A stretch of 64,000 nt of DNA from Halobacteroides halobius DSM 5150 (GTDB lineage Bacteria > Bacillota > Halanaerobiia > Halobacteroidales > Halobacteroidaceae). The stretch is from assembly GCF_000328625.1 (NCBI RefSeq), contig NC_019978.1, positions 1,984,001 through 2,048,000 on the forward strand. The letters run 5' to 3'. The position numbers and the translations under genes are program-made. Positions 7,646 to 37,619 of the stretch are shown piece by piece. The notes beneath the pieces are model-generated. The model did not search any database, had not been told where the DNA came from, and saw nothing but the letters and a program-made list of their open reading frames with translations. Every line of letters starts with the position of its first letter. The stretch's first letter is position 1.

Positions 7646-7650
7646 TATAA

Positions 7651-7679
7651 ATTGTAGCATATCCTCAATCCAATGTCAA
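7651..7679 (-). promoter_or_regulatory. SigmaA promoter for rplU operon
   Basis: Minus strand TTGACA (7674-7679), 17-nt spacer, TACAAT (7651-7656). It lies directly after the rng stop codon at 7685. Confidence 0.88.
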
Positions 7680-7684
7680 GAGAA

Positions 7685-9341: not shown

Positions 9342-9406
9342 CAACCACCCCCTTTGTTATTAAACTATTTCTATTGGAGTCAATAACTCCCCATATCTAT
9401 AAAAAT

Positions 9407-10270: not shown

Positions 10271-10306
10271 AATGCCACCCTCTTTCTGTATCATCTACAT
10301 AATATA

Positions 10307-10335
10307 ATATTAGTGGCATTTATTTAATATGTAAA
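10307..10335 (-). promoter_or_regulatory. Promoter for spoIVFB
   Basis: Minus strand TTTACA (10330-10335), 17-nt spacer, TAATAT (10307-10312), 37 bp upstream of the chosen start. Good match to a sigmaA promoter. Confidence 0.6.
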
Positions 10336-10364
10336 ATCATAATCTCCATTTTTTACTAAATTAA

Positions 10365-10394
10365 AGGCTAAGATTAGACAACTAACCTTAGCCT
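10365..10394 (-). terminator. Terminator-like hairpin after rodA
   Basis: A 13-bp stem (AGGCTAAGGTTAG / CTAATCTTAGCCT on the minus strand) with a 4-nt loop, a few bases after the rodA stop. The T-tract behind it is weak (TTTAATTT). Confidence 0.75.
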
Positions 10395-10398
10395 AATT

Positions 10399-11526
10399 TT
10401 AAAATGATAACTTCTTCCTCCGCATATTTACATTAAGAATTAATCCTATCCCAATTAAATTGGTAACCATAGCACTACCACCATAACTTATAAAGGGTAG
10501 AGGTATTCCTGTAACAGGCATAATTCCAAGTGTCATCCCTACATTTTCTACGATATGAAAGATATACATACAAAGTACCCCTATTACTAAAAATCGTCCA
10601 AAACTATCTTTAGCATTTTTAGCTACTGTAATCCCGCGCCAAATTAAAATAAAATAACATACTAAAACAACCATAGTTCCAATAAGTCCGAATTCTTCTC
10701 CTAATACAGAAAAAATAAAATCAGTGTGGCGTTCAGGTAAAAAGTTAAGCTGATTTTGCGTACCAGCAAATAAACCTTTACCAAATATCCCCCCTGAACC
10801 TATAGCTACTTTAGATTGTATAACATTATAACCAGCACCTAAAGGGTCAAATTGAGGATTAACTAATACTAAGAAACGATTTAGCTGATATCTTTGTAAA
10901 GGAATAGGAACTCCTAAATATAAATGAGCCGATACCCAACTTGCAGTAACCGCAATCACTCCAAAAATACTCCCAAATAAAAATTTACTATTGGCCCCCG
11001 CTACATAAATCATTCCAATAAAAATAGCCAATAATACCAAAGAAGTTCCTAAGTCATTCTGTAATAAAATCAATATAAAAGGAACTCCAATATAAATACC
11101 TGGTACTATCAAACCTAGAATATACTTTATTCTTCGTTTCCTTTTAGTTAGTACATCAGCTAAAGTAATTATAACCGCTATCTTGGTTATCTCAGAAGGT
11201 TGGAAGCTAAAAGGACCTAGCCTAATCCAACTTTGACCTCCTTGAATTGTTTGAGCTACAAACAAAATCCCAACTAGTACTAATACAATCCCTCCATAGA
11301 TCACATTTACATAATCTTGTAAAATTCTATAATCAAACACAAGAATTATACCAATTGCTATACTACCAACCAAAGTAGCTATCAGTTGCTTTTGTAAAAA
11401 AATATTATTCCAAAATGAACCTTCATTTACGTGAGTAGCACTTCCTATTAAGACTAATCCCATCATAATCAATACTAAAGTAATTAAGGGAATCACATAA
11501 TCAATATTTTTTATTAATTTCTCCAT
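10399..11526 (-). CDS. rodA: Rod-shape SEDS glycosyltransferase RodA
   Basis: A 375-residue, about ten-segment SEDS protein that polymerises lipid II during elongation with PBP2. Signatures: LGPFSFQPSEI, QNDLGTSLVL, FLPERHTDFIFSVLGEEFG and PVTGIPLPFISYGGSA. The cognate PBP2 gene is in the same cluster (13.4-15.2 kb). It follows minE after a terminator and has its own promoter. Membrane topology is typical. Confidence 0.93.
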   Translation of the reverse strand: MEKLIKNIDYVIPLITLVLIMMGLVLIGSATHVNEGSFWNNIFLQKQLIATLVGSIAIGIILVFDYRILQDYVNVIYGGIVLVLVGILFVAQTIQGGQSWIRLGPFSFQPSEITKIAVIITLADVLTKRKRRIKYILGLIVPGIYIGVPFILILLQNDLGTSLVLLAIFIGMIYVAGANSKFLFGSIFGVIAVTASWVSAHLYLGVPIPLQRYQLNRFLVLVNPQFDPLGAGYNVIQSKVAIGSGGIFGKGLFAGTQNQLNFLPERHTDFIFSVLGEEFGLIGTMVVLVCYFILIWRGITVAKNAKDSFGRFLVIGVLCMYIFHIVENVGMTLGIMPVTGIPLPFISYGGSAMVTNLIGIGLILNVNMRRKKLSF

Positions 11527-11559
11527 TTAACTCCCCCTTACTACAATCTCTACTTAAAA

Positions 11560-11589
11560 ATTATATAATATCTACTAGCATTAGTCCAA
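11560..11589 (-). promoter_or_regulatory. Promoter for rodA
   Basis: Minus strand TTGGAC (11584-11589), 18-nt spacer, TATAAT (11560-11565), located between the minE terminator and rodA. Confidence 0.7.
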
Positions 11590-11613
11590 CGAAAAGTTAC
11601 ATTCATCTCTAAT

Positions 11614-11664
11614 AGAAAAAAGCCTCATAAAAATAAACCAGGATTCTCCTGGCTTATTTTTATG
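11614..11664 (-). terminator. Strong terminator overlapping the minE stop
   Basis: An approximately 18-bp stem (CATAAAAATAAGCCAGGA and its near complement, 3-nt loop) is followed by AGGCTTTTTT on the minus strand. The stem includes the minE stop codon and ends the long maf-to-minE operon. Confidence 0.92.
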
Positions 11665-11941
11665 ATCTTTTATTCTTATGTATCTTTTTTAAATTTCTCA
11701 CTGGAATATTAGCTACTAAAGCCATTGAATCATCATCTTGTTCTAACTCCATCTCTAAATTTTCATCCTCTATCTCCAAATATTTAGAAATAACCTCTAT
11801 AAGTTCTTCTTTCATATCATCAATTATTTCTGGAGAAACACCTATTCGGTCATGAATTAACACTAGCCGTAACCTCTCTTTAGCTACTTCTTTGCTAGCC
11901 ATCTCTTCATTCCCCATAATTCCTTTTACTAAATCTAGCAC
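11660..11941 (-). CDS. minE: Cell division topological specificity factor MinE
   Basis: A 93-residue MinE. A short amphipathic N terminus (MLDLVKGIMG) is followed by the MinD-binding region AKERLRLVLIHDR and a C-terminal dimerisation domain with PEIIDDMKEELIEVISKYLE. It drives MinD oscillation and places the Z-ring. Its presence after minC and minD shows an oscillating Min system rather than the DivIVA-only Bacillus arrangement. Confidence 0.95.
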   Translation of the reverse strand: MLDLVKGIMGNEEMASKEVAKERLRLVLIHDRIGVSPEIIDDMKEELIEVISKYLEIEDENLEMELEQDDDSMALVANIPVRNLKKIHKNKRS

Positions 11942-11958
11942 ATTTTTTCCTCCTCTAT

Positions 11959-12750
11959 TTAATCAAGTCCTATAAACTTCTTTAAACGATCTATTAAGTT
12001 ATCTTCTAAAGAAAGATATGGAATTTTATTCCCCTCAATTCTTTGGGCAACATTCCAAAATGACTTACCAGCTTTAGTATCATTATCTAAAATGATTGGT
12101 TCTCCTTTATTAGTAGAGATAACAATTTTTTCATCTTCAGGTATAATTCCTAATAATTTAATAGCTAAAATATCCTTCATATCTTCAATCTCCATCATAT
12201 CACCCCGCCGAACCATATCCATTCTAATTCGATTAATAATTAACTTTGGGTCATCTAAACCTTCTGCTTCTAACATTCCAATAATTCTATCAGCATCTCT
12301 AACTGCTGACACCTCAGGCGTAGTAACTACAATAGATTCATCTACACCTGCTATAGCATTTTTAAAACCTTGCTCTATACCAGCTGGGGAGTCAATAATA
12401 ATATAATCATATTCTTTTTTTAATTGAATACATAATTTCTCCATTTGCTTTGGACTAACAGCCGTTTTATCCCTCGTTTGAGCAGCAGGTAATAAATGTA
12501 AACTGCTATAACGTTTATCCTTAATTAAAGCTTGTTCTAAACGGCAATTATCTTCTACCACATCTACAATATCATACACAATTCTATTTTCTAACCCTAA
12601 GACTACATCAAGATTTCGCAATCCAATATCAGCATCTATCAAAGCTACCTTTTTCCCTAATTTAGCCAAACCAATTCCTAAGTTAGCAGTAGTTGTAGTC
12701 TTTCCTACACCACCTTTTCCTGAAGTTATAACATAAGCCTTTCCTACCAT
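11959..12750 (-). CDS. minD: Septum site-determining ATPase MinD
   Basis: ParA-family ATPase with deviant Walker A (SGKGGVGKTTTTANLG), the Walker A' segment LIDADIGLRNLDVVLG and a C-terminal amphipathic membrane-binding helix (LIDRLKKFIGLD). It binds membrane as an ATP dimer, recruits MinC and is stimulated by MinE. ATG at 12750 has a GGAGG site at good spacing; a TTG one codon earlier is possible. Between minC and minE. Confidence 0.96.
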   Translation of the reverse strand: MVGKAYVITSGKGGVGKTTTTANLGIGLAKLGKKVALIDADIGLRNLDVVLGLENRIVYDIVDVVEDNCRLEQALIKDKRYSSLHLLPAAQTRDKTAVSPKQMEKLCIQLKKEYDYIIIDSPAGIEQGFKNAIAGVDESIVVTTPEVSAVRDADRIIGMLEAEGLDDPKLIINRIRMDMVRRGDMMEIEDMKDILAIKLLGIIPEDEKIVISTNKGEPIILDNDTKAGKSFWNVAQRIEGNKIPYLSLEDNLIDRLKKFIGLD

Positions 12751-12762
12751 CAAAATTCCTCC

Positions 12763-13368
12763 TTATTTCAAATAATCAATTACAATTTTATCTTCTTTAA
12801 CAAAAGCAATTTCAGCAGCCTCAGGAGAATGAAAATCATCATCTGGAGCTCGACTAATATGATTAGCAATTCTTAACTGAATAGGTTCTAGACGAAACGC
12901 TGAAATGGTTGCATTAGGATCTCCATTCACTCCCGCATGTGTAATTCCTCTTACTTCTCCCATTACTAATATATCGCCTCCAGCTGTTACTTCAGCCCCA
13001 GGATTAATATCACCTTCAATTACAATGTTCCCTTTATAAGCAATTGACTGACCGGATCTAACTGTCCTTTTAATTAATAGCGTATCATCTTCTGGTTCAG
13101 AATCTGAAACAGAATTAAAATTATTACTAAATTCCACTATAAAGGTACCCGGCTGCTTCTTAAAAATATCTAATAACTCTCTCTTTTGTTGAGAAGACAG
13201 ACATCTGTTTCCTAAATTAACTTTAGCAATCGTATTTCCTTTAAAAAAATTACTACTTTCTTCAAATTTATTATCCAAGCTAGCTTTAATTTCGGAAAAA
13301 TCAGAGTCTTCATTTAATAAGATAATAAGGCCCTCCTGGTCAGCCTTAAAAACAACACTCCTTTGCAT
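12763..13368 (-). CDS. minC: Septum site-determining protein MinC
   Basis: FtsZ polymerisation inhibitor. The N-terminal FtsZ-binding domain is followed by a C-terminal beta-helix domain with TVRSGQSIAYKGNIVI, GDINPGAEVTAGGDI and VMGEVRGITHAG repeats, as in the family. The frame extends 11 codons further upstream but AGGAGGAG lies 5 nt before the ATG at 13368. Starts 29 bp after the mrdA stop. Confidence 0.94.
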   Translation of the reverse strand: MQRSVVFKADQEGLIILLNEDSDFSEIKASLDNKFEESSNFFKGNTIAKVNLGNRCLSSQQKRELLDIFKKQPGTFIVEFSNNFNSVSDSEPEDDTLLIKRTVRSGQSIAYKGNIVIEGDINPGAEVTAGGDILVMGEVRGITHAGVNGDPNATISAFRLEPIQLRIANHISRAPDDDFHSPEAAEIAFVKEDKIVIDYLK

Positions 13369-13397
13369 CTTAACTCCTCCTATAAATTTAAACCACA

Positions 13398-15245
13398 TCA
13401 ACTAGCCGATTTATCACTTTTAAAATTATTATTTAAATCAAAATACTCCTTAATAATCCCTTTAGCTATAGGTAACGTATTAGCACTTGATGCACCATAT
13501 TCAATAAAGACTGTAATAGCAATCTTTGGGTCATCAGCTGGAGCAAATCCAGCAAACCAACCATGATTTGGTCGGTTTCTACCTGTTTGAGCTGTTCCCG
13601 TCTTTCCCGCTACTTTAATTGGGATATCTTTAAATACACTTCTGGCCGTTCCATAACTAGTAACACCTACCATACCCTTTTTAATTATTTTTAAATGGGA
13701 TTTAGAAACAGGTATCTCATTTAATAATTTAGGCTTAATATCTTTAACTACTTTCCCTTGGCTATCAACTATTTTATCAACTACCAAAGGTTGATATAAC
13801 TTTCCTCCATTAGCTACAGCCGAAACTAAATTAACTAACTGGATTGGAGAGACCCGTAAATTCCCTTGCCCAATTGATAAATTAATAGTATAGCCAGGAT
13901 ACCAAATTTGATTTTCTCTCTTCTCAAAATATTTCTTTCTCCACGCTGGACCTGGTACAAGTCCAGTAGCTTCATTAGGAAGATCGACTTGTGTCTTATC
14001 TCCGAGCCCAAACTCTCTAGCATACTCTTGTAATAATGTTTTGTCCTTTTTATAGAGACGATGACCTAACTTAAAGAAAACCGTATTATTAGACCAAGCA
14101 ATAGAATCGACAAAATTTATTTCCCCTTGGCCCCCTGGATACCAGTTGCGGAATTTAACTCCACCCGTTTTATAATAACCAGGATCATAAAATTTTGTCT
14201 TGGCTGTAATACCTAACTCCTCTAGACTAGCTGATCCAGTAACTATCTTAAATATAGAACCAGAAGGAGCACTAGTACTTACAGCACGGTTTAATAAAGG
14301 TTGCGTATAACTATTATTTAATTTTTTCCACTCTTTTTTAGTAATTTCAGTTAAAAACTGTTCTGGATTATAATCAGGATAACTGGCCATAGCCAAGATA
14401 CTACCATTTTTAGGATTAGTAATAATAACTGCTCCTCCACTAGGAGGCTGACTAATATCTTTATCCTGCTTAGCTAATTTAATCAACTTTTCGATCTCAC
14501 TTTTTAATAATTGTTCCACTTCCTTTTGTAGCTGATAATCCAAGTTCAAAACTAGATTATATCCAGGAGTAGGTTTTTTTATCCCTAAAGTTCTTACCTT
14601 TTGACCTAAATTATTTACCTCTATTAACTTTTTACCTTTTTTTCCACGTAAATATTCTTCATATCTTAACTCTAGACCCGTCTTTCCAATTAAATCTCCT
14701 AAACTATAATCTTCACGCTCCTTTAATTCAGCACCAGAAATTTCACTAAGATAACCTAATACATGACTAGCAAAATTTTGGTCAATATATTCCCGAATTG
14801 GTGTTTTTTCAATCAGTAATCCTGGTATTTCATCTTTATTTTCTTCTAATAAAATTAGCTCTTTACGATCTATATCCCTCTCTAAAATAATAGGTTTATT
14901 TGTACTAGCATTCTTTAGTTTTTCTTTTGTTTTTTTTACATTTAAGTTGATTATTTCATCTAACCTCTTCAAAACTAGATCTAACTTATCAATTTCGGCT
15001 GGGATTATAGAGACACTATATGCTAACCTATTAGAAACTAAAACTTTTTTATCTCGATCATAAATTTTACCTCTAGGTGCTCTAATTGGAATTACCGATG
15101 TTCTATATCCTTTAGATAGTTCCTTAAATTTTTGATAGCTATAAACTTGTAAATAATAAAGTCTCCCCACCAATACTACAAAAAGAACAGCCAGTAAAAT
15201 TCTAAATAAAAGAAGCCTCCTATCCTCTTCTTGATTCTCTCTCAA
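13398..15245 (-). CDS. mrdA: Penicillin-binding protein 2 (elongasome transpeptidase)
   Basis: A 615-residue class B PBP with one N-terminal membrane anchor (about 9-27), a dimerisation/pedestal domain beginning RGKIYDRDKKVL, and a transpeptidase domain with SIFK (active Ser, within PSGSIFKIV), SNN and KTGTAQ. It crosslinks the peptidoglycan made by RodA. A TTG start with GGGGG upstream makes it overlap mreD by 26 bp. Its placement between mreD and minC links it to the rod complex. Confidence 0.94.
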   Translation of the reverse strand: MRENQEEDRRLLLFRILLAVLFVVLVGRLYYLQVYSYQKFKELSKGYRTSVIPIRAPRGKIYDRDKKVLVSNRLAYSVSIIPAEIDKLDLVLKRLDEIINLNVKKTKEKLKNASTNKPIILERDIDRKELILLEENKDEIPGLLIEKTPIREYIDQNFASHVLGYLSEISGAELKEREDYSLGDLIGKTGLELRYEEYLRGKKGKKLIEVNNLGQKVRTLGIKKPTPGYNLVLNLDYQLQKEVEQLLKSEIEKLIKLAKQDKDISQPPSGGAVIITNPKNGSILAMASYPDYNPEQFLTEITKKEWKKLNNSYTQPLLNRAVSTSAPSGSIFKIVTGSASLEELGITAKTKFYDPGYYKTGGVKFRNWYPGGQGEINFVDSIAWSNNTVFFKLGHRLYKKDKTLLQEYAREFGLGDKTQVDLPNEATGLVPGPAWRKKYFEKRENQIWYPGYTINLSIGQGNLRVSPIQLVNLVSAVANGGKLYQPLVVDKIVDSQGKVVKDIKPKLLNEIPVSKSHLKIIKKGMVGVTSYGTARSVFKDIPIKVAGKTGTAQTGRNRPNHGWFAGFAPADDPKIAITVFIEYGASSANTLPIAKGIIKEYFDLNNNFKSDKSAS

Positions 15246-15723
15246 TTATACTGCCCCCTAATTTATACAAAATGGGATAAATAATCACAGATAGAGTAGC
15301 ATTAGAAATTCCTAAAGGAATAATTACCACTCGAAAAATCTCCTCTAATGGCATAGCCATCAATAAATAATTTGCAAAAGATATAATTAACAATTGATTA
15401 ATTACTGTAGCTAGAAATGAAAGAAACGGAGGGACTAATAATTTATCTTGATAAATATTACCTTTTAAAAATCCAAACAAATAACCTACTAATGCCTTAC
15501 AAATAGCATTAATTCCAAATAATCCTCCTGAAAATAAGTCCTGTAAGAGTCCCATTATAAAGCCGGCTATTCCCCCAGCTGTTTTTCCGTAGTTCACCGC
15601 CAAAAAAACAAGTAATATTAATAGTAAATCAGGCGCCACCCCATAAAAAAGATTTTGAAAAGAAGATAAACTCTGAACAATAAAAAATAATAGAGTTAAA
15701 AATCCATAAACTAGATAGAACAC
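15220..15723 (-). CDS. mreD: Rod shape-determining membrane protein MreD
   Basis: A 167-residue protein of about five membrane helices. The family feature is an acidic/Gly-rich GFIMGLLQDLFSGGLFGINA segment. It bridges MreC and the rest of the elongasome. The start overlaps the mreC stop and the end overlaps mrdA, consistent with tight co-translation. Confidence 0.9.
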   Translation of the reverse strand: MFYLVYGFLTLLFFIVQSLSSFQNLFYGVAPDLLLILLVFLAVNYGKTAGGIAGFIMGLLQDLFSGGLFGINAICKALVGYLFGFLKGNIYQDKLLVPPFLSFLATVINQLLIISFANYLLMAMPLEEIFRVVIIPLGISNATLSVIIYPILYKLGGSIIERESRRG

Positions 15724-27125: not shown

Positions 27126-28136
27126 TTATTCATATCCAATTGTTTCTTTAGGACAAACAGCAATACACTGCTCACACTGAATACATTCAACCTGGTCTAT
27201 TTCGTGCTGTCCACCTTGCTCTCCAGAGATAGCATCAACAGGACATTTATTGGTACAAAGGGTACAACCTACACATTCATCACCAATTACAATCTGACCA
27301 CTATCTTCTGAAGTTGAAGTATCCTCAACTTCAAATGGAGTCTCTACCATAGCATCAGTTGGACAGACTTTAACACATTGATTACAACCGATACATTCTT
27401 CTGCATCAACTACTGGTAGATTATCTTCCATTTCAATAGCATCTACAGGACACTTTTTAGCACATAAACTACAACCTATACAACCTATATCGCAAGATTG
27501 TTTAACTTCAGTAGCACCTAAAGTAGATACACACTTAGTCGTTACTGCTTCTTGATTACTCATCAAAGAAATTATATTACGTGGACACTCAATTACACAC
27601 TCTTCACAACCGGTACATTTCTTTTCATCAATTTTAGGCAGACCATTATCAGTCATATAGATAGCATCAAATTGACAAACAGCTTCACAATCACCAAAGC
27701 CTAGACAACCATAACTACAAGATTTGATATTAACTTCCATATTAGCAGCCTGACAAGTCGCTACTCCTTCATAATTAGCCTTCATAGTAGTTTCTTGGTT
27801 ACCACCTTGACATAAAACTTGCGCTACTTTAACTTCTTGCTTAGAACTTTTAGCATCCACTCCCATAATTTGGGCTACTTTATCTGCTACTTCTTCGCCA
27901 CCAACAGGACAACCATCAACTGCCACTTCTTCCTTAACTACTCCTTCTGCAAAACTGAAACAACCTGGATAACCACAAGCACCACAATTAGCACCTGGTA
28001 AAGCTTCTTCTATTTTCCCTTTTCTAGGGTCTTCATCAACAGAAAATTTAACTGAAGCATAAGCCAAACCTCCAGCAAATACTGCTCCTAAAATCCCCAT
28101 ACTAGAAACTGCACTTTTAAAAATGGTTAAGTTCAT
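27126..28136 (-). CDS. rnfB: Rnf complex iron-sulfur subunit RnfB
   Basis: Ferredoxin-interacting subunit. N-terminal membrane helix (about 6-28), then the Fe-S domain NCGACGYPGCFSFAEG, then a long C-terminal array of CxxCxxCxxxCP motifs (CTGCEECVIECP, CIGCSLCAKKCP, CIGCNQCVKVCP, CVGCTLCTNKCP, CIQCEQCIAVCP) plus CSYGCLGFGDCEAVC. That is about seven predicted [4Fe-4S] sites. At about 336 residues it is of the long clostridial/Acetobacterium type. ATG at 28136 follows AGGTGG. Last gene of rnfCDGEAB. Confidence 0.95.
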   Translation of the reverse strand: MNLTIFKSAVSSMGILGAVFAGGLAYASVKFSVDEDPRKGKIEEALPGANCGACGYPGCFSFAEGVVKEEVAVDGCPVGGEEVADKVAQIMGVDAKSSKQEVKVAQVLCQGGNQETTMKANYEGVATCQAANMEVNIKSCSYGCLGFGDCEAVCQFDAIYMTDNGLPKIDEKKCTGCEECVIECPRNIISLMSNQEAVTTKCVSTLGATEVKQSCDIGCIGCSLCAKKCPVDAIEMEDNLPVVDAEECIGCNQCVKVCPTDAMVETPFEVEDTSTSEDSGQIVIGDECVGCTLCTNKCPVDAISGEQGGQHEIDQVECIQCEQCIAVCPKETIGYE

Positions 28137-28203
28137 CTTTACCACCTCTCTTATATGCCTAGAAAAATTTAACGCTCTAAACTAATTCTTTTATAATAAA
28201 TTT

Positions 28204-28785
28204 TTAAATTCCTGCAAACCCCATAAATGCCATTGCCATCATTCCAGCAATCAATAAAGTAATTGGTGCTCCTCGTAAAGGTTTAGGGACATTAGCAAAG
28301 TCTAACTTTTCTCTCATACCAGCCATTAATACTAAAGCTAATGTAAAACCTACACCTGCTCCTAAACCAAAAACTGTACTTTCAATAAAGTTATAACCAT
28401 TCATTGGAATCTGTAAAGCTAAACCTAAAATTGCACAATTAGTAGTAATTAATGGTAGAAAAATTCCTAAGGCCTTATATAATGGTGGACTAACTTTTTT
28501 AATTATCATTTCAGTTAGTTGTACAAAGGAAGCAATTACTAGAATAAAAGCAACGTATCTCATATATCCTAACCCTAAAGGAACTAAAATTAATGAATCA
28601 ATAGCCCAGACACAAATAGCAGACATAGTCATTACAAAAGTAGTAGCTAACCCCATACTAAATGCTGTTGGAATTTCTTTAGAAACTCCTAAGAAAGGAC
28701 AGATCCCTAAAAACTGGGCCAAAATAAAGTTATTAGTAATTGATGCCGTTAAAAAAAGTACAAATAATCCTCCTATACTATCCAT
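28204..28785 (-). CDS. rnfA: Rnf complex membrane subunit RnfA
   Basis: A 193-residue, six-helix membrane protein. Contains TNNFILAQFLGICPFLG and TNCAILGLALQ, the paired half-membrane Cys motifs that hold the intramembrane [2Fe-2S] centre together with RnfE. Carries electrons across the membrane between RnfB and RnfC/D/G. 17 bp downstream of rnfE. Confidence 0.95.
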   Translation of the reverse strand: MDSIGGLFVLFLTASITNNFILAQFLGICPFLGVSKEIPTAFSMGLATTFVMTMSAICVWAIDSLILVPLGLGYMRYVAFILVIASFVQLTEMIIKKVSPPLYKALGIFLPLITTNCAILGLALQIPMNGYNFIESTVFGLGAGVGFTLALVLMAGMREKLDFANVPKPLRGAPITLLIAGMMAMAFMGFAGI

Positions 28786-28801
28786 CTTATAACCTCCTTA
28801 C

Positions 28802-29461
28802 CTAAATACTTTTTGATCTATCATTATTAACTTGACTATTAGAACCTCCAATTAGATCCTGAAAACTAATTGATTGATCTTTAATGGCATTAACAACACC
28901 TAATACAGTTCCTAAACTTAAAAAGGCACCAGCGGGCAAGACCATAATCCCCCATGTATTAAACCAATCTCCCATCACTTGAATACTAAATATAGTTCCA
29001 AAGCCAAGTAATTCTCTTATAATTCCTAAAAAAGTTAAAGCCCAAGTAAATCCTATTCCCATACCCAAAGCATCAAAAACTGAGCGGTGAACAGGCATTT
29101 TAGAGGCAAAAGATTCTGAGCGCCCTAAAATCAAACAATTTACTACGATTAGTGGAATAAATAACTTTAAAGAAGCTGCAATCGCAGGAAAATAAGCCTT
29201 AGCTACATAATCAACAATTGTTACAAAAGTAGCAATTACAACAATAAAACTAGGAATCCTAACTTCATCTGGAATCAAGTTTCTTAATAAAGAATTCACA
29301 ATTCCAGCCCCTAATAATACAAAAGTAGTTGCTAATCCCATAGCAAATCCATTAGTGGCTGTATTCGTTACAGCTAAAGTTGGGCACATTCCTAATAACA
29401 TTACTAAAGCAGGGTTCTCTTCCCATATCCCTTTACTAAAGTCCTTCCATAATTTAAACAA
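28802..29461 (-). CDS. rnfE: Rnf complex membrane subunit RnfE
   Basis: Paralogue of RnfA with matching motifs ALVMLLGMCPTLAVTN and VVNCLILGRSE. About six membrane helices. The frame is open into rnfG, but a GGAGG site at the rnfG end with spacing 8 supports TTG at 29461 as the start, which removes the 47-bp overlap. C-terminal tail is polar. Fourth gene of the operon. Confidence 0.92.
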   Translation of the reverse strand: MFKLWKDFSKGIWEENPALVMLLGMCPTLAVTNTATNGFAMGLATTFVLLGAGIVNSLLRNLIPDEVRIPSFIVVIATFVTIVDYVAKAYFPAIAASLKLFIPLIVVNCLILGRSESFASKMPVHRSVFDALGMGIGFTWALTFLGIIRELLGFGTIFSIQVMGDWFNTWGIMVLPAGAFLSLGTVLGVVNAIKDQSISFQDLIGGSNSQVNNDRSKSI

Positions 29462-29462
29462 A

Positions 29463-30002
29463 TTACTCACCTCCACCATAAACTTGCTGTACTTTTGCAA
29501 TAGCTTCATCTAAAACATCACTTAAAGCCTGAGAAGAAATAGTTGCTCCCGTAATAGCATCAACATCTTTTTTAGCTTTAAATGCGTCAGAAAAAGACTT
29601 CCCTTGAAATTGAGCCTTAAATTGTTTCTCAGTTATTCTAGACCCTAAACCTGGAGTTTCTGCTTGAGATAAAATATTTATCTTAATTATTTTATTTTCC
29701 TTTAGATCCATTCCGATCATTAATTTTATTATACTTTGAAACCCTTGCCCAGAATTTTGAACAGCATAACCTACTGTATTACCAGACTTATCAATCCCTT
29801 TATACAAAGTAAGTCCTTCTTTAGTTACTTTTTTATATTTTATAGCCCCAGGTAATACATCTAAAATTGCTTTTTCTTTCTTTTCCTGAGCTTGAGCTTT
29901 AATTATAGGTGTTGTTACCTGATAAACGTAAGTTAACACCAATGCAGAGACAATCATAATTAAAGTTAACACTATAATCAACCGAGGTTTTATTTTAGCC
30001 AT
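29463..30002 (-). CDS. rnfG: Rnf complex flavoprotein subunit RnfG
   Basis: N-terminal membrane anchor (about 9-28) and an extracytoplasmic FMN_bind domain with ETPGLGSRI and the flavin-attachment motif VDAITGATISS (Thr near residue 154). FMN would be attached by ApbE, whose gene is at 21.6-22.7 kb. Overlaps the rnfD end by 8 bp. Confidence 0.95.
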   Translation of the reverse strand: MAKIKPRLIIVLTLIMIVSALVLTYVYQVTTPIIKAQAQEKKEKAILDVLPGAIKYKKVTKEGLTLYKGIDKSGNTVGYAVQNSGQGFQSIIKLMIGMDLKENKIIKINILSQAETPGLGSRITEKQFKAQFQGKSFSDAFKAKKDVDAITGATISSQALSDVLDEAIAKVQQVYGGGE

Positions 30003-30912
30003 TTGCTTTCACCTCACCAAAGACCTGTGGTTGAGTATACTGATCAATTAATGGTACACATAAATTCATTAATAAAATAGAATACATAACTCCCTCTGGA
30101 TATCCTCCATATAATCTAATCAGTACTGTTAAAAATCCACAACCAATACCAAAGATCAAACGACCTTTCTTAGTTACTGGGGTAGTGACCATATCTGTAG
30201 CCATAAAGAATGCTCCAAGCACTAAACCACCAGCTAATAAATGAAAAATTGGCCCTTTAGAACCTAACAAACTAGTTAAAATCGCTACCGTTCCTAGATA
30301 TCCTGTTGGGATTCTCCAATCAATATATCCTTTGTATAACAAATATAAGCCACCTAATACAATTGCTGCTACAGAAGTCTCACCTAAGGAACCTCCTGTA
30401 CTACCTAAAAATAAATCTGTTACTGAAGTTAATTCTTTTGCTTTCAAAGGTGTTGCTTGAGAAGTAACATCAACCATCTTAAACGTAGTCATTGCTACTG
30501 GAAAAGATGCCATTAAAAATGCACGTCCTATTAAAGCAGGATTAAAGAAATTATATCCTAATCCACCAAATACATGCTTACCAAGCACAATAGCTATTAT
30601 ACTTCCTAAACTAGCCATCCACAATGGTGCGGTTGGTGGTAGTGTTAAAGCTAACAATAAACCTGTTAATAAAGCACTTCCATCAGTAATCGTAACTGGC
30701 ACTCCACGTAACTTCTGCCAGACTGCCTCTGTCACTACAGCTACTAGAGAACAAGCTATCATTAACCATAAGCCATGAGAACCAAAGTAGTAAATCCCAG
30801 CTAAAGTAGCCGGTAATAAAGCCAAGATTACATTAAACATAATTTGAGATGTTGTCTCTTTACTTCTAATATGTGGAGCTGAAGAAACTGTCAACTGCAC
30901 ATCTTTAGCCAT
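29995..30912 (-). CDS. rnfD: Rnf complex membrane subunit RnfD
   Basis: A 305-residue multi-helix subunit thought to form the ion path with covalent FMN. Starts TVSSAPHIRSKETTSQIM; GYNFFNPALIGRAF is a family hallmark. The expected flavinylation motif SGAT reads SQAT here (151-154, DVTSQATPLK): the Thr is kept but the Gly is replaced by Gln. Second gene after rnfC. Confidence 0.95.
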   Translation of the reverse strand: MAKDVQLTVSSAPHIRSKETTSQIMFNVILALLPATLAGIYYFGSHGLWLMIACSLVAVVTEAVWQKLRGVPVTITDGSALLTGLLLALTLPPTAPLWMASLGSIIAIVLGKHVFGGLGYNFFNPALIGRAFLMASFPVAMTTFKMVDVTSQATPLKAKELTSVTDLFLGSTGGSLGETSVAAIVLGGLYLLYKGYIDWRIPTGYLGTVAILTSLLGSKGPIFHLLAGGLVLGAFFMATDMVTTPVTKKGRLIFGIGCGFLTVLIRLYGGYPEGVMYSILLMNLCVPLIDQYTQPQVFGEVKANG

Positions 30913-30923
30913 AACCTTCCCTC

Positions 30924-32228
30924 CTAGTCTCTCTTTTTAGCTTGTAATTTTGCTATACCTAACTTAATCCACTGTACCATTTCAATATTCGCTGGACAAA
31001 CATAAGTACATGAACCACACTGAATACAATCAGAAATATTATAATCATCTGCTTCTGAAATCATATCCTCTTTAACTAACTTAACAATATTAGTAGGAAT
31101 TAATTTAGCTGGACAAGCATCAACACAACGAGCACATCTGATACATGGGCTTGCATCAGGGTAGTGATTGACCTCTTTTTCACTTAATACTAATACACCA
31201 GATGTTCCTTTAGTCACAGGCACATCCAACTCACTTTGTGCTTTTCCTGTCATTGGCCCACCTAAAATAACTTTACCTGGATTTCCTTTAAATCCACCAC
31301 ACTGATCAATTAAAGATTCTACTGGAGTCCCTATTCGAACTAGTAAATTTTGTGGCTGCTTAACTGCTCCTGTAATAGTTACTGCACGTTGAATTAAAGG
31401 TTTTCCTTCAGTAATTGCTTCAGCCATAGCCGCTGCAGTTCCTGTATTATTAACAACTACTCCTATATCCAAAGGTAGACCTCCAGAAGGAACTTCTTTT
31501 CCTAAGATAGCATCAATTAACTGCTTTTCTCCTCCCTGAGGATATTTTGTCTCTAAAGGAACCACCTTAAGCTGTGAGTTACCTTTAGTTACATCCTGCA
31601 ACTTTTTAATAGCATCAAGTTTATTATCTTCAACCCCAATATAACCTTTTTTAGCTTCCGTCATCTTCATTAGAGCTTTTAATCCTGTTACTATCTTTTT
31701 AGCTTCTTCAAGCATCAGTCGATGATCAACTGTTAAGTAAGGCTCACATTCTGCCCCATTTAAAATAACTGTATCTACTTCTTTATCATCTGGAATAGAA
31801 ACCTTAACGTGACTTGGAAAAGTAGCTCCTCCTAAGCCAACCATTCCTGCTTCCTGGATAATACTTCTTAACTCATTAGCCGTTAAATCTTCTAATCTTC
31901 GGTTTTGCTTAGCTTCCTTGGCCCAATTATCTTGACCATCATTCTTAATTCTAACTTCTACTCTGCTATCACTATTTTCAATAGCAATAACTTCCCCAGA
32001 GACACTCGCATGAATATTAGCTGATACAAAACCAGCACTCTCTCCAATTTTCTCTCCTACTTTAACCAAATCTCCCTCTTCTACTAACAACTTAGCTGGG
32101 GCACCAATATGTTGTTGCAGAGGAATCACTACTTCATCTGGCACTTTAGCTTTAATTAAAGCCTTATCTTTAGTTAAAGCTTTATTATACCGTGGATGAA
32201 TTCCTTGGTCAAAACTTTTCACTTCCAT
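30924..32228 (-). CDS. rnfC: Rnf complex NADH-binding subunit RnfC
   Basis: NADH/FMN and Fe-S subunit related to Nqo1. Contains the biotinyl-like N-terminal barrel, a Gly-rich nucleotide motif GLGGATFPSHVK (about 132-143), AECEPYLTVDHRLM, and two ferredoxin motifs CIRCARCVDACP and CIQCGSCTYVCP. About 434 residues. First gene of the operon, about 110 nt downstream of the predicted promoter. Confidence 0.96.
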   Translation of the reverse strand: MEVKSFDQGIHPRYNKALTKDKALIKAKVPDEVVIPLQQHIGAPAKLLVEEGDLVKVGEKIGESAGFVSANIHASVSGEVIAIENSDSRVEVRIKNDGQDNWAKEAKQNRRLEDLTANELRSIIQEAGMVGLGGATFPSHVKVSIPDDKEVDTVILNGAECEPYLTVDHRLMLEEAKKIVTGLKALMKMTEAKKGYIGVEDNKLDAIKKLQDVTKGNSQLKVVPLETKYPQGGEKQLIDAILGKEVPSGGLPLDIGVVVNNTGTAAAMAEAITEGKPLIQRAVTITGAVKQPQNLLVRIGTPVESLIDQCGGFKGNPGKVILGGPMTGKAQSELDVPVTKGTSGVLVLSEKEVNHYPDASPCIRCARCVDACPAKLIPTNIVKLVKEDMISEADDYNISDCIQCGSCTYVCPANIEMVQWIKLGIAKLQAKKRD

Positions 32229-32335
32229 ACTCTCACCCCTTTATAACTAATTAAAAATTACAAACCCCCATAGATAGTTGAGCTTATAATTACTACTCAA
32301 TTAATATTAACATATTAATTATTTAATTACAATAA

Positions 32336-32370
32336 TTGTTCATTTTATCACAAGGTGTGATTTTAATCAA
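32336..32370 (-). promoter_or_regulatory. rnf operon promoter with overlapping Rex-like site
   Basis: Minus strand TTGATT (32365-32370), 17-nt spacer, TAAAAT (32342-32347). The -10 lies inside TTGTGA-TAAAAT-GAACAA (32336-32353), which resembles the 18-bp Rex operator (TTGTTAA-4-TTAACAA type) with intact TTGT/ACAA ends. Rex would derepress at high NADH/NAD. No rex gene is seen in the window. Confidence 0.5.
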
Positions 32371-32388: not shown

Positions 32389-33129
32389 TTATATATCTTT
32401 CAACTTTTTAGATTCTTCATTGATAGATATTACTTTCTTTAATTTAGATAATTTTTTTGAATTCAGCCTCAACTTAATACTCTTTGCTATATCTTCTAAA
32501 TAATGAGCATCAGAACTAGTTATCAAAAAATAATTTTCAAGTTGAGGAAATTTTAATTTAATCTCTTCTAAATCAACTTTAGAATAGATCTCTACAATAG
32601 ATAAATTCAAATCTGGTGGAATAAACCCTAAATTAGAAATCAAACTGTAATTTTTCTTATCAATATGAGCTGGAATAACTAATCCTCCTAGCTTTCTAAC
32701 CTCTTTTATCACTTGCTTCACAGTAAGATCAGTAGCTGTTAATAATAATCTATCTAATTTTTTTACATATTGATCATTTGAATTAACAATTATTTGTGGG
32801 CCAAAGACCTCTTCTTTATTTTTTATATTAGGTAATGCCTTATAAACTATCTCTTGTAACTGTAAAACTTGCTTAAGATTAGCAAATAAACAAACTAAAT
32901 GAACTTCTTCACTTGTAGTAACTTCCATACCTGGTATAACAGTTAGAGGGGTATCTTTTGCTAACTTAATTGCTACTTCTACATTTTCAGCTGAATTATG
33001 ATCAGTGATAGCAATTATATCTAATCCAACCCCTAAAGCTTGCTTGATAATATTTTGTGGTGTCATTAATAAATCACCACAAGGTGATAAAACAGTATGC
33101 ATATGCAAATCAGCATAAATTCCTGACAC
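32389..33129 (-). CDS. PHP-domain phosphoesterase
   Basis: A 246-residue PHP (polymerase and histidinol phosphatase) fold: YADLHMHTVLSPCGD at the start, AITDHNSAEN, PGMEVTTSEEVHLVCLF and VIPAHIDKK, with a late SSDAHYLEDI. The His/Asp metal ligands are all present, so an active phosphoesterase is likely; substrate unknown. Found after a DRTGG gene and the HydS-like gene, a recurring clostridial set. GTG start. Confidence 0.85.
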   Translation of the reverse strand: MSGIYADLHMHTVLSPCGDLLMTPQNIIKQALGVGLDIIAITDHNSAENVEVAIKLAKDTPLTVIPGMEVTTSEEVHLVCLFANLKQVLQLQEIVYKALPNIKNKEEVFGPQIIVNSNDQYVKKLDRLLLTATDLTVKQVIKEVRKLGGLVIPAHIDKKNYSLISNLGFIPPDLNLSIVEIYSKVDLEEIKLKFPQLENYFLITSSDAHYLEDIAKSIKLRLNSKKLSKLKKVISINEESKKLKDI

Positions 33130-33131
33130 AC

Positions 33132-33467
33132 TTATTCAACCCCTAATTTATATAATTGGCCTGCTAATTCATAAGTTGACATAGTACTCCGTAAAATAGT
33201 AACCTCTTTTTCTAAAGCTTTTTCAATTGTTTCTTCATCAATCTCAAAATCTTCTACAACTATAATCCCTGCTGCTTCAACTAATAAGGAAACAGCTACT
33301 ATATTCTGATGGCCCTGAATTGTAAGCCATAAATCACCTTTATTAGCATTAGCCATTACATTACTTAATAAATCACAAGCATACCCTCCTGTTACTTGAG
33401 CATCTAAATTACCTTCTACCACTATTTCTAACTCCAGTTGATTAACAATTTCTTTAAGTTTCATCAC
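33132..33467 (-). CDS. DRTGG-domain protein, upstream of PHP
   Basis: A 111-residue single DRTGG domain (VTGGYACDLLSNVMANANKGDLW). The domain is named from phosphotransacetylase and CBS-domain proteins; function unclear, possibly ligand sensing. It overlaps the end of the hydrogenase-like gene by 14 bp and abuts the PHP gene, so it is part of one translation-coupled set. Confidence 0.8.
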   Translation of the reverse strand: MMKLKEIVNQLELEIVVEGNLDAQVTGGYACDLLSNVMANANKGDLWLTIQGHQNIVAVSLLVEAAGIIVVEDFEIDEETIEKALEKEVTILRSTMSTYELAGQLYKLGVE

Positions 33468-34758
33468 TTTTATCCTCCCTTTGCATAACTGGTGGTAAAG
33501 AATGAGCTAAAGAAGTCATTTGATCAGTTAAATCAGCTAATTGCTGACGTAAAATAAAAACACAATCACTCCTCGATGCTAAGCCATTAACAATATCCTC
33601 AGCCAAAGTTTTACAATCAGGTGTTCCACAAGCAGCACAATCTAGTCCTGGTAAAGCATCAGTCTCATCTTTTAACTTAGCTAACTTGGCTATAGCTGAG
33701 TTGAAATCATCATCTAACGGGCCAACTGCATTAGATTCAAAATCATTATCTAAGATAAAATCATACTTACCTACTTCTTGTTTAACTAATTTATCCCCCT
33801 GCTTAATCAATTTTTTGATATTAAATTGGGCCAAAAAAGGATTCTTTACATTCAAAACTCCACCTACACATCCAGGCTCACAAGCCAATAATTCAAAAAA
33901 CTTAATATGAGATAAGTCACCTCGATCAAGCTCTTCTAACACAGAAATTACATTATGAATCCCAGATACAGCAATGGTATCATTATTTATTAAACCACTT
34001 TCTCCTCCACTATTGGCCCAGCCAATCCCCAAATAAGGCGGCTTATAATCTTTTTCATTAACAGTTTTTAGCTCCTTTACTTTTTGTAATAATGGCCGAT
34101 AAATCTTATCTACTGCTATAGCTCCTGTAAAAAAACTCTCTTCCATACCTAAAGGATTCTTAATTGCTGTCATTTTAGCAGGACATGGAGTAATAAAAAA
34201 GACTCCAACTTGATCATCATCAAATCCCTTACTCTTTTTAACCCTTTGTCTTATTTTTTGCGCTACTATCTCTACTGGAGGTTTAAGAGGTAATAAATAA
34301 TCTATTAACTCTGGATATAATAACTTTATTAATCTAACTACAGCAGGGCAAGCTGAGGAAATTATTGGCCCCTCATTATTCTTTAGATAATCTCTCGTAG
34401 CCCTAGTTAGTGCTTCTGCTCCTAAAGCAGCATCCCATACCTCTTTAAATCCTAATTCCTTTAAACCTATTGTAACATGAACAGGATCTATCTCTTCAGT
34501 AAATTGACCATAAAAACTAGGTGGTACTACAGCTATAGAATACTCATACTCTTGGATTTCTTTTAATTCACCAGTAATAACATGCTTTGCATGATGTTCA
34601 CAGTTTCTAATACACTCACCACAATCTATACAGTACTGGTCCTTAATCCAAGCCTGACCTTGGTGTACTCTAATTGCTTTAGTAGGACAATTTTGTACAC
34701 AATTAGTACAACCTTCACATTTATCTTCCTTTAAATGCACAGAATGGGACTTATTCAT
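33454..34758 (-). CDS. Sensory-type (group C/D-like) [FeFe]-hydrogenase
   Basis: Two N-terminal [4Fe-4S] motifs (CEGCTNCVQNCP about 14-25; CIDCGECIRNCE about 43-54) precede a hydrogenase large-subunit domain. All four H-cluster cysteines are present: SSACPAV (Cys137), TPCPAKM (Cys192), and ACEPGCVGG (Cys293, Cys297). The proton-relay Cys of catalytic enzymes (TSCCP) is Ala136 here, as in HydS-type proteins. A C-terminal CAACGTPDC Fe-S motif follows. No PAS domain. Flanked by DRTGG, HATPase and PHP genes, so a regulatory rather than catalytic role is likely (inference). Confidence 0.85.
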   Translation of the reverse strand: MNKSHSVHLKEDKCEGCTNCVQNCPTKAIRVHQGQAWIKDQYCIDCGECIRNCEHHAKHVITGELKEIQEYEYSIAVVPPSFYGQFTEEIDPVHVTIGLKELGFKEVWDAALGAEALTRATRDYLKNNEGPIISSACPAVVRLIKLLYPELIDYLLPLKPPVEIVAQKIRQRVKKSKGFDDDQVGVFFITPCPAKMTAIKNPLGMEESFFTGAIAVDKIYRPLLQKVKELKTVNEKDYKPPYLGIGWANSGGESGLINNDTIAVSGIHNVISVLEELDRGDLSHIKFFELLACEPGCVGGVLNVKNPFLAQFNIKKLIKQGDKLVKQEVGKYDFILDNDFESNAVGPLDDDFNSAIAKLAKLKDETDALPGLDCAACGTPDCKTLAEDIVNGLASRSDCVFILRQQLADLTDQMTSLAHSLPPVMQREDKSDET

Positions 34759-34816
34759 AAAACCACCTACCTTAAAGATTTTAGTAGTATATTAATAACT
34801 TAATTAACTCATTATT

Positions 34817-35248
34817 TTATAAACAAATGGAAGCAACAATTGTAGTACCTACATTTAATTCAGTTTCTACATCTAATTGATCGGAACACTGTTTAATATT
34901 ACATAATCCCATACCAGCTCCAAATCCCATTTCTCTTATAGAATCACTAGCAGTAGAAAACCCTGGTTGAAAGGCTTTATCTACATCCTCTATTCCTGGC
35001 CCTTTGTCAGTAGCAATGACTTTAACTACTTGAGGACTCACTCTAGCCTTTAACTTACCACCTACTGAATGAATAATAATATTCATTTCCAATTCGTAAG
35101 TTATAATAGCAATCTTTCGAATTATATCAGATGATACACCTAGTTTACGTAGTATCTCTTTTAAATTACTAGAAGCTTCTCCACCACTACTAAAATCACC
35201 TGCTTCAATTTTAGAAGTTAAAATAGTCTGTAATGAATAATCTTCCAC
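34817..35248 (-). CDS. HATPase_c / anti-sigma-factor-like kinase
   Basis: A 143-residue GHKL ATPase of the RsbW/SpoIIAB class: N box YELEMNIIIHS, G1 box DKGPGIEDVD, G2 box GFGAGMGLCNIKQ. Such proteins phosphorylate anti-sigma antagonists or act as switch kinases. No partner STAS protein is seen nearby. GTG start with GGAGGG upstream. Between the HydS-like gene and a second DRTGG gene, so it may transduce the hydrogenase signal. Confidence 0.82.
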   Translation of the reverse strand: MEDYSLQTILTSKIEAGDFSSGGEASSNLKEILRKLGVSSDIIRKIAIITYELEMNIIIHSVGGKLKARVSPQVVKVIATDKGPGIEDVDKAFQPGFSTASDSIREMGFGAGMGLCNIKQCSDQLDVETELNVGTTIVASICL

Positions 35249-35281
35249 ATCAATCCCTCCATCTTATAGCTTGTCTATATT

Positions 35282-35650
35282 TTATTGTAGCTTAGTTAAT
35301 TTTTCAGCAGCTAATCCAGCAGAATATAATAAACCACAAGCTTCATACAAGGGCTTATCTGTAACTAATAATGGTATCTGCTTGCTTTTAGCTAAATCAA
35401 TAGTTTCAGAAAGAGGTTCTTTTCCCCTTACAAAAATAATAGCAGCTAAATCAATCATTTCTGCCGTTCTCACTACCTGTGGATTAGTTAATCCGGTTAA
35501 TAATAAGGTTTTTTCTTTAGTAAATGCTAGAACATCACTCATTAAATCAGCACCACAGGCAGTTGAAATTATACATTTCTTTAAAGCACTCTCATCTTTA
35601 ATATAAATAATCTTAGCTGATAATAAATCTTGCACTTCTTTTAATTTCAT
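35282..35650 (-). CDS. DRTGG-domain protein, first gene of the hydrogenase-sensor set
   Basis: A 122-residue DRTGG domain (STACGADLMSDVLAFTKEKTLLLTG). Paralogue of the 33.1-33.5 kb gene. Starts 34 bp after the SPOR-gene terminator; a promoter between them is not obvious, so read-through may contribute. Ligand unknown. Confidence 0.8.
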   Translation of the reverse strand: MKLKEVQDLLSAKIIYIKDESALKKCIISTACGADLMSDVLAFTKEKTLLLTGLTNPQVVRTAEMIDLAAIIFVRGKEPLSETIDLAKSKQIPLLVTDKPLYEACGLLYSAGLAAEKLTKLQ

Positions 35651-35675: not shown

Positions 35676-35706
35676 GATAGAAAAGACCCACATTTAAAGT
35701 GGGTCT
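35676..35706 (-). terminator. Terminator after the SPOR-domain gene
   Basis: An 8-bp stem AGACCCAC/GTGGGTCT with a 7-nt loop (35684-35706), followed on the minus strand by CTTTTCTAT. Confidence 0.82.
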
Positions 35707-35710
35707 AAAT

Positions 35711-36211
35711 TTAGTGTTTGATATAAACAGAGAATCCGCTCTTCTTAAGCTCAGAACCTAATTCTTCCGCAGCTTTTTCAGTTCTAAATGCCCCAGTCTG
35801 AACCCGATAAGGCTCCTCACTAGTAATGTATGCAGTAAATCCTTGCTTTTTCAAATTCTTAACTAAACCTTGAGCATTAGACTTCTTACTAAAAGCACCT
35901 ACCTGAACAACAAACAGATTCTGATTATTTATTGATTGGGAAATTGTAGGTTTTTCAGATTCAGTTTCTGCTTTCTTCTTGGTTGCATTTGAATTAGATG
36001 CCTTCTCCTTTAGCTTATCAGGATTAATCTCCTCCTCTTTAACAATTTTGTCACCATTAATTGCATTAAGCTTTTCCTTAGGAGCAGCATAATAGTCTAA
36101 AAACCAGCTACTAACAAAATAACCAAATACACCAGCCATCACCGCCATAACAGCTAACATTGTAAATAAGGAAGCACCAGACTTAAGCTTTCCACCTTTA
36201 TTTCTTCTCAT
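35711..36211 (-). CDS. SPOR-domain membrane protein
   Basis: 166 residues: a basic cytoplasmic start, one membrane helix (about 14-36), a Lys/Glu/Asn-rich linker and a C-terminal SPOR domain (FVVQVGAFSKKSNAQGL and PYRVQTGAFRTEKAAEEL). SPOR domains bind denuded peptidoglycan at septa. Single transcription unit with its own terminator, after folC. Confidence 0.85.
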   Translation of the reverse strand: MRRNKGGKLKSGASLFTMLAVMAVMAGVFGYFVSSWFLDYYAAPKEKLNAINGDKIVKEEEINPDKLKEKASNSNATKKKAETESEKPTISQSINNQNLFVVQVGAFSKKSNAQGLVKNLKKQGFTAYITSEEPYRVQTGAFRTEKAAEELGSELKKSGFSVYIKH

Positions 36212-36347
36212 AAAATACCATCTCCTCCTGATTTAATTTAGGGAGTAAGTTTTAAAATTAAGTCTTACCTGCTTTTCTTAATAGATATTATGCAACCTAT
36301 CAACTATTTATTAACAAGTTTCAAAATAAATAATTTCATTCAATAGA

Positions 36348-37619
36348 TTAATTTTCTAAAATATCCTTTGCTTCAGCTACAGTATATAAAGAACCACTGA
36401 TTACAATTAGGTCATTAACCTCCGCAACTTGTTTGGTATAATCTATAGCTTTGACTAATTCTTCTTCTAGTTTTACATTAGAGTTATACTGAATTACTTC
36501 TTCTTTTATATTAGTAACTTCTTCCACTCGCTCATTTATATTTTCAGCTATTATTACTTGCCTGGCACTTGGGGCCAATTGACTGATAATCCCTTTTACA
36601 TCTTTATCAGCTAAAATACTAACTACTAAAAATAAATTATCATATTCTAAATTTCTAATAGCTTCTTTTAATTTCTTAGCTGCAGCATAATTATGAGCAC
36701 CATCAAGAATAATAGTTGGCTGCGTAGATGTTACTTCTAACCTCCCGGGCCAATTTACTTTAGATATTCCCTGCTTAATCTCTACCTTAGTAACTGGAAA
36801 TTGATCATTTAAAATTTCTATGGCTGATAAAGCAGTAGCAGCATTAACTATTTGATGATTGCCTAATAAAGGAAGTTGTAACTTGTTATAAACTTCCTGC
36901 TCTCCCCTAATATCAAATACCTGTTTTAATAGTCTTACTTGATATTTTTTCCAACTAAATTTATTGTATACATTTACTAACCTTGCTTCTTTTTCTGAAC
37001 AAACTTGTTTTAAACAAGATAAAACTTCTTTATTTTGAGTAGCAGTAATTACAAATTGATCTGGCTTAATAATTCCTGCCTTTTCAACAGCAATTTCGCT
37101 TATTGTATTTCCTAAATAGTCAGTGTGATCTAAACTTACATTTGTAATAATAGATATTAGAGTATCCACTACATTAGTAGCATCCAGTCTGCCACCCATT
37201 CCTACTTCTAAAATTGCTAAATCTACCTTTTGGTCAGCAAAATAGCTTATAGCTAGTGCAGTAATAACTTCAAAAAAAGTAGGATGTTCTAATTTATAGT
37301 TCACTTTCTTAATCGCTATTTTTAATTTATTAACTAATTTCTTTAAATCTTGGTCACTAATATTTTCATCATTAATTCTAATTCGTTCATTAAATTCAAT
37401 TAAGTGTGGGGAGTTATAAGTACCTACTTTATAACCTGCTTCTTTATAGATTGAAGTCAATATAGCTGCAGTAGACCCCTTACCATTAGTCCCTCCAACA
37501 TGAATAATATTAAGCTTTTCTTCAGGGTTTCCCAAGTAATCTAATAATAATTCCATTCGCTCTAAGCCAGGCTTTATTCCAAATTTATTTAAAGATTCCA
37601 AATACTCTATTGCTTTCAT
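36348..37619 (-). CDS. folC: Bifunctional folylpolyglutamate/dihydrofolate synthase
   Basis: Mur-ligase-fold enzyme adding glutamate to folates. Motifs: IHVGGTNGKGSTAAI (P-loop), GMGGRLDATNVV, SLDHTDYLGNT, ILDGAHNYAA. About 423 residues. It usually follows valS; here two plus-strand genes separate them. ATG start. Confidence 0.95.
   Translation of the reverse strand: MKAIEYLESLNKFGIKPGLERMELLLDYLGNPEEKLNIIHVGGTNGKGSTAAILTSIYKEAGYKVGTYNSPHLIEFNERIRINDENISDQDLKKLVNKLKIAIKKVNYKLEHPTFFEVITALAISYFADQKVDLAILEVGMGGRLDATNVVDTLISIITNVSLDHTDYLGNTISEIAVEKAGIIKPDQFVITATQNKEVLSCLKQVCSEKEARLVNVYNKFSWKKYQVRLLKQVFDIRGEQEVYNKLQLPLLGNHQIVNAATALSAIEILNDQFPVTKVEIKQGISKVNWPGRLEVTSTQPTIILDGAHNYAAAKKLKEAIRNLEYDNLFLVVSILADKDVKGIISQLAPSARQVIIAENINERVEEVTNIKEEVIQYNSNVKLEEELVKAIDYTKQVAEVNDLIVISGSLYTVAEAKDILEN

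Follow-up and report, generated by a model that had tools for sequence, protein, structure and literature searches.

A group D putative sensory [FeFe]-hydrogenase linked to a GHKL kinase-like module with DRTGG and PHP proteins in Halobacteroides halobius

We analyzed a 64,000-nucleotide stretch (the window) of the closed, 2.65 Mb genome of Halobacteroides halobius DSM 5150 (assembly GCF_000328625.1, contig NC_019978.1, positions 1,984,001 to 2,048,000), focusing on five genes upstream of rnfC that encode two DRTGG-domain proteins (DRTGG1 and DRTGG2), a GHKL ATPase, an [FeFe]-hydrogenase (HydS) and a PHP-family protein. The results suggest that HydS is probably the H2- or redox-sensing subunit of a GHKL kinase-like complex, DRTGG2-ATPase-HydS-DRTGG1, with the PHP protein as an accessory. 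The sequence-backed parts of this reading are gene content, invariant catalytic residues, near-strict co-occurrence, gene fusions and the replaceability of HydS. A first-pass annotation, made from the letters alone, had described five co-directional genes, and all five open reading frames (ORFs) were found in place, tightly spaced and each supported by Pfam, in the following minus-strand order:

35282..35650, minus strand: DRTGG2, DRTGG-domain protein of 122 aa, ATPase partner (Pfam DRTGG, 26.6 bits)
34817..35248, minus strand: GHKL (Bergerat-fold) ATPase of the SpoIIAB/RsbW/RsbT-like serine-kinase type, 143 aa (Pfam HATPase_c)
33454..34758, minus strand: HydS, group D (M2e) putative sensory [FeFe]-hydrogenase, 434 aa (Pfam, active-site residues, tree)
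33132..33467, minus strand: DRTGG1, DRTGG-domain protein of 111 aa (Pfam, 27.5 bits; model pLDDT 97.9)
32389..33129, minus strand: PHP-family metal-dependent phosphoesterase, predicted, 246 aa (Pfam, 39.8 bits; model pLDDT 93.8)

HydS matched the Pfam models Fe_hyd_lg_C, Fer4 and C-terminal FeS (PF04060), with no PAS match. The H-cluster ligands C137, C192, C293 and C297 were all present, as was K195 (Lys358), and at the CpI-numbered sites 299, 353 and 497 the protein carried Ala for Cys, Thr for Met and Leu for Met, respectively. This alignment bore out the earlier description of a HydS-like protein with intact H-cluster cysteines and a proton-relay cysteine replaced by Ala. The N-terminal part also carried two [4Fe-4S] motifs and the C-terminal part a Cx2Cx4Cx16C motif (C374, C377, C382 and C399), and the 16 Fe-S and H-cluster cysteines were invariant in 84/84 group D sequences, which places the HydS assignment far beyond chance. 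Among 85 group D sequences, position 299 was Ala in 62, Ser in 20 and Thr in 3, position 353 was Thr in 47 and Ser in 38, and Cys299 and Met353 were lost in every one. A tree of 158 hydrogenases, built without TamHydS itself, split the 85 HydS sequences from all the rest with a support of 1.0, as a clade distinct from catalytic group A and from group C, in agreement with the expectation that HydS stands apart from catalytic hydrogenases. By sequence, these results assign the HydS of the window to group D (M2e), as a TamHydS-type putative sensory [FeFe]-hydrogenase.

The marks of group D are published, and TamHydS of Thermoanaerobacter mathranii is the sole studied member according to the accessible text of the TamHydS papers (PMC8163306, PMC13104023). 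The same text describes TamHydS as slow, reversible and CO-tolerant, with a secondary structure that shifts with H2; its authors leave the interaction partner as a question, and the 2026 paper asks for that partner. Both proteins share the architecture 2x[4Fe-4S]-H-domain-Cx2Cx4Cx16C, lack PAS, do not conserve Cys299 and have Ser/Thr in place of Met353. At the TamHydS locus, as far as it is described there, a histidine-kinase-like ATPase gene likewise adjoins and a bifurcating hydrogenase lies downstream, whereas the window module precedes rnf, not hydABC. Two DRTGG proteins, a PHP protein, fusions and the CBS alternative given below are not mentioned in the accessible parts of these two papers.

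The ATPase is, on its profile matches, of the SpoIIAB/RsbW/RsbT serine-kinase kind. It reached an E value of 1e-6 against SpoIIAB in the PDB and 48.8 bits against TIGR01925 (anti-sigma F), under the cut-off of 135, and its scores against SpoIIAB and RsbT-type proteins were about equal. The module ATPase shares with these best matches the Bergerat fold, the N-box Glu and Asn and the G1 and G2 boxes, and the ATP-site residues checked, the N-box Glu among them, were invariant in 78/78 ATPase sequences. Unlike SpoIIAB, RsbW and RsbT, it has its own lid motif (GFSTA...GFGAGMGL), sits in a module without a recognized STAS or sigma partner, and occurs in relatives as fusions with HydS, DRTGG or CBS.

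The spread of the module was surveyed across 88 loci, with one genome counted twice (L043, L051); the related-locus search gave the best 80 of more matches and is tilted to near relatives, and the survey gene names came from profiles built on these same loci. The order DRTGG2-ATPase-HydS-DRTGG1-PHP recurred, with the ATPase in 84, DRTGG1 in 81, PHP in 78 and DRTGG2 in 76 of the 88 loci, counts that take in fused forms where matched and in which several absences are contig ends. The range covered Clostridia, Halanaerobiales, Desulfotomaculum-type Firmicutes (without PHP), Symbiobacterium, Syntrophorhabdus-type bacteria and Parabacteroides. A separate set of 249 genomes from the phylum contained 91 with HydS and 97 with the ATPase subfamily; 90 had both. 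HydS and the ATPase were adjacent on the same strand in 89/90 pairs, with a median gap of ~55 bp; in the 90th (G102), HydS was split across two reading frames. The only HydS genome without an ATPase match (G176) carried one copy of HydS, located at the edge of a contig. PHP (90 genomes) and DRTGG (100 genomes) followed the same genome set.

Gene fusions, called from ORFs rather than from transcript data, joined the same components. DRTGG2 was fused to the ATPase in seven loci (L078, L085, L093, L096, L109, L159 and L161), the ATPase to HydS in a single reading frame in L143, HydS to DRTGG1 in L157 and L158, and PHP to HATP2 in L160, each rare fusion coming from one or two genomes. HATP2 is a second GHKL ATPase of 181 aa, seen in the genome of the window between hydC and hydB (L048:12488-13033) and recurring in most hydABC loci read. 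The fusions connect DRTGG2, ATPase, HydS and DRTGG1 pairwise and are thus good evidence for a physical GHKL-kinase complex, with HydS most likely as its sensor subunit. Group D has long been termed sensory although no partner was known; from the fusions and the almost perfect linkage, the GHKL ATPase and the DRTGG proteins emerge as candidates.

HydS is replaceable within the module. Four genomes (G001, G002, G160 and G101) carried DRTGG2-ATPase-DRTGG1-PHP-HATP2 without HydS and with an N-terminal CBS pair on the ATPase, identified by Pfam in G001, G160 and G101 and by sequence and length in G002. The swap is not strict, since L045 and L046 had both a CBS-type extension and HydS; three further genomes (G021, G169 and G048) had the module with neither. 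In L149 and L150, DRTGG1 alone remained ahead of hydC-HATP2-fd-hydB, and in L151 (7165-8927) the ATPase, HydS and PHP were remnants around an intact DRTGG1, a decaying module. These loci indicate that DRTGG1 and HATP2 stay closest to hydABC, and that gain and loss of the ATPase and of HydS tend to coincide. One HydS-less module (L131:3091-9514) was followed by a cell-wall amidase gene and a Germane-domain gene, and another from the same genus (L133:8008-14394) by genes of similar size.

Both DRTGG proteins scored above the Pfam cut-off of 25.2 bits. D32, S35, W47, T49 and N55 of DRTGG1 were invariant in 81/81 sequences, and in DRTGG2, D35 was conserved in 68/69 and S38 in 69/69. Foldseek placed the DRTGG1 model with the N-domain of HPrK/P (1ko7), AF1212 (2ioj) and the CBS-DRTGG pyrophosphatase of Clostridium perfringens (3l2b/3l31). 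By our reading of the secondary structure, the invariant D, S, W/T and N sit where strands end and helices begin, an arrangement that resembles a ligand site. The C. perfringens pyrophosphatase is nucleotide-regulated, binds AMP/Ap4A and has a CBS-DRTGG regulatory region; the module shares its DRTGG fold, and the CBS pair recurs on the module ATPase, whereas the module DRTGG is free-standing and has the invariant D..S..W.T..N set. The DRTGG Ser was also considered as a phospho-acceptor of the kinase and rejected, as it persists in L149/L150, whose genomes (G017 and G142) gave no ATPase match; this retention makes a ligand pocket likelier than a phospho-acceptor. The PHP metal ligands (H9, H11, D43, H44, E69, H77, H155, D207 and H209) were conserved in 71-72 of 72 sequences, with variation in the metal-binding set at the D19 position only, and the modeled fold resembled 3o0f, EndoQ, RNase AM and TM0559. 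The module PHP shares fold and metal ligands with RNase AM, EndoQ, TM0559 and the AMP-binding 2yb1 and differs from them in its low identity (~16-18%) and an invariant Cys in an LSPC motif. It is, by metal-ligand set and modeled fold, a predicted phosphoesterase.

We infer the following scheme for complex formation, kinase activity, ligand, target and direction of control. HydS would be reduced by H2 or ferredoxin and change conformation, which would alter the activity of the bound ATPase. A small ligand of the DRTGG subunits, perhaps an adenine nucleotide, would probably provide a second input, and the PHP phosphoesterase would be an accessory arm of the complex. The output would tune low-potential electron machinery, normally the electron-bifurcating HydABC; in the family of the window it would act on HydABC (encoded elsewhere in the genome), on Rnf, or on both. 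If this is true, fermenters, syntrophs and gut bacteria would use an H-cluster to convert the H2 level into kinase activity, and this would help to account for their redirection of electrons among H2, ethanol and acetate. Naming the likely partner makes H2-sensor signaling testable. More tentatively, the module may represent an undescribed type of signaling, a redox-gated serine-kinase complex in which exchangeable sensors (HydS or a CBS pair) on a DRTGG/GHKL-kinase/PHP core set the activity of the bifurcating hydrogenase and Rnf.

Several points weigh against a HydS-sensing kinase complex. Joint operons and fusions can reflect joint assembly instead of signaling, and the HydS-less modules show, from gene content, that the kinase core is independent of HydS. 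PHP was missing from six Peptococcia-type loci, and the Fisher p of ~4e-58 for HydS/ATPase co-occurrence is nominal because the genomes are phylogenetically non-independent. At one locus (L118:9505-13201), HydS occurred without the GHKL ATPase, beside a Fur-family regulator and two ferredoxin-containing MinD/ParA-type ATPases. The literature searched contained no biochemistry of the module ATPase, DRTGG or PHP proteins.

A histidine or serine kinase beside group D hydrogenases has already been mentioned, as the accessible parts of the literature (including PMC8163306 and PMC3561251) record. In the literature searched, where absence is no proof of absence, DRTGG was not found combined with these hydrogenases, and the module genes were absent from the accessible text of papers on the Clostridium thermocellum proteome and on Tepidanaerobacter. 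Group D with a kinase-like neighbor is known; no description of the complete module or of its wiring was found there. Within the same literature, the proposal of a signaling-like module with undescribed output held, and the term sensory module is supported.

The neighborhood of the module was then weighed against the first-pass hint that it belongs to rnf. The flanking features of the window are as follows:

27126..32228, minus strand: rnfCDGEAB, downstream, weakly indicated as a possible target (NCBIfam rnfC, rnfD and rnfB TIGR01944 above cut-off)
35684..35706, minus strand: terminator-like hairpin of intrinsic type in the gap between the SPOR gene and DRTGG2 (8 pairs, 5 G-C, T tail)
35711..37619, minus strand: SPOR-domain gene and folC, conserved upstream flank, presumably outside the module (Pfam)

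In most of the 88 loci, hydC-HATP2-fd-hydB-hydA lay behind PHP, so the hint gave way to a module mostly ahead of hydABC. Published locus tags fit this arrangement, with the group D HydS five tags from the bifurcating trimer in several organisms (PMC3561251). It is unlikely, though the best of the alternatives, that the module is Rnf-specific in the lineage of the window and evolved there for Rnf control. It stood ahead of rnfC in 8/8 HydS-bearing genomes of the order examined, and three HydS-less relatives retained DRTGG2-ATPase ahead of rnfC. However, loss of hydABC from a folC-module-hydABC-rnf cluster explains the same neighborhood: rnfC followed hydA in six loci, L113 carried folC-SPOR-module-hydABC-rnfC in a single row, and L045/L046 kept the remnant order module-HATP2-fd-rnfC. 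In Halanaerobium species, the module is followed by hydABC rather than by rnf. The window itself reads folC-SPOR-module-rnfC, with hydC-HATP2-hydB-hydA elsewhere in the same genome (L048). The simplest history, read from gene orders and not from a tree of them, is that the module-rnf adjacency is a remnant after hydABC was lost or relocated, and rnf is only weakly indicated as the target.

Slightly less probable still is that HydS acts as a slow catalytic redox valve between H2 and ferredoxin near Rnf/HydABC, the small proteins being only assembly aids, with the ATPase a chaperone and PHP housekeeping. TamHydS turns over H2 reversibly, according to the accessible text of PMC8163306, both of the N-terminal [4Fe-4S] clusters through which electrons would enter are invariantly present, and DRTGG1 and HATP2 remain at hydABC after HydS loss. 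However, the loss of Cys299 and Met353 in all 85 group D sequences, the low published rates, the SpoIIAB/RsbT kind of the ATPase and the persistence of the module where HydS is missing argue against a valve. So do the neighbors in one family: in f80 (L154-L156), and also in L060, the ATPase-HydS pair lay behind a conserved PAS/GAF/HisKA kinase and an OmpR-type regulator. CheW was near the pair in L155, L060 and L112, and an [FeFe]-hydrogenase fused to a methyl-accepting chemotaxis (MCP) domain stood beside ATPase-HydS in L155 (4934-6847) and L156 (5534-7447). In G192, the other module genes lay elsewhere, behind Rex (L153). The HisKA, OmpR, CheW, MCP and Rex neighbors favor signaling over metabolism.

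The genome of the window encodes five more [FeFe]-hydrogenases, including a group C-type PAS-HydS. At L047 (G000:C1:22000-41999), consecutive genes at positions 7280-15338 encode PAS-HydS, a SpoIIE-type phosphatase, an [FeFe]-hydrogenase of 503 aa, Rex and an adhE-like product of 866 aa. Group C (M2f) PAS-HydS with a SpoIIE-like phosphatase, known from hfsBC of Thermoanaerobacterium and from R. albus HydS (PMC5707799, PMC11837493), resembles the group D module in tying a putative H2-sensing hydrogenase to serine phosphorylation; the clades are separate, and group C has PAS and a phosphatase where the group D module has a GHKL kinase. Classical partner switching, in which the ATPase, as anti-sigma factor or STAS kinase, would release a sigma factor and the SpoIIE-type phosphatase from the group C cluster would counteract it, is improbable. 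In its favor, the top profile matches are SpoIIAB and RsbT-type proteins beside STAS genes, the genome has the L047 row, and deletion of hfsB, a group C homologue, raises adhE expression (PMC5707799). Against it, no STAS or sigma gene was recognized in the module, although many neighbors outside it were left unnamed, and Table 6 of PMC3561251 lists organisms with group D and without group C. The genome gave only two STAS matches, of which one is SpoIIAA and the other falls in a 543-aa frame elsewhere; both lie away from the module, and no dedicated STAS partner for the ATPase was found.

The module had been said to end just before the rnf promoter. The PHP stop does lie 160 bp from the rnfC start, and promoter-like matches in the region were no more frequent than in shuffled sequence; an rnf promoter in this gap is plausible. 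The gap also holds a Rex-like site, TTGTGATAAAATGAACAA (TTGTGA-N6-GAACAA-like; window 32333-32354, minus strand). A Rex operator ahead of rnf was dropped, as generic Rex matches in the window were at chance level and the site was missing in seven relatives. The SPOR/folC flank was likewise present in relatives and in L113. Terminator-like sites in the region numbered 4 against 1.2 expected, and the hairpin between the SPOR gene and DRTGG2 fits the module as its own transcription unit.

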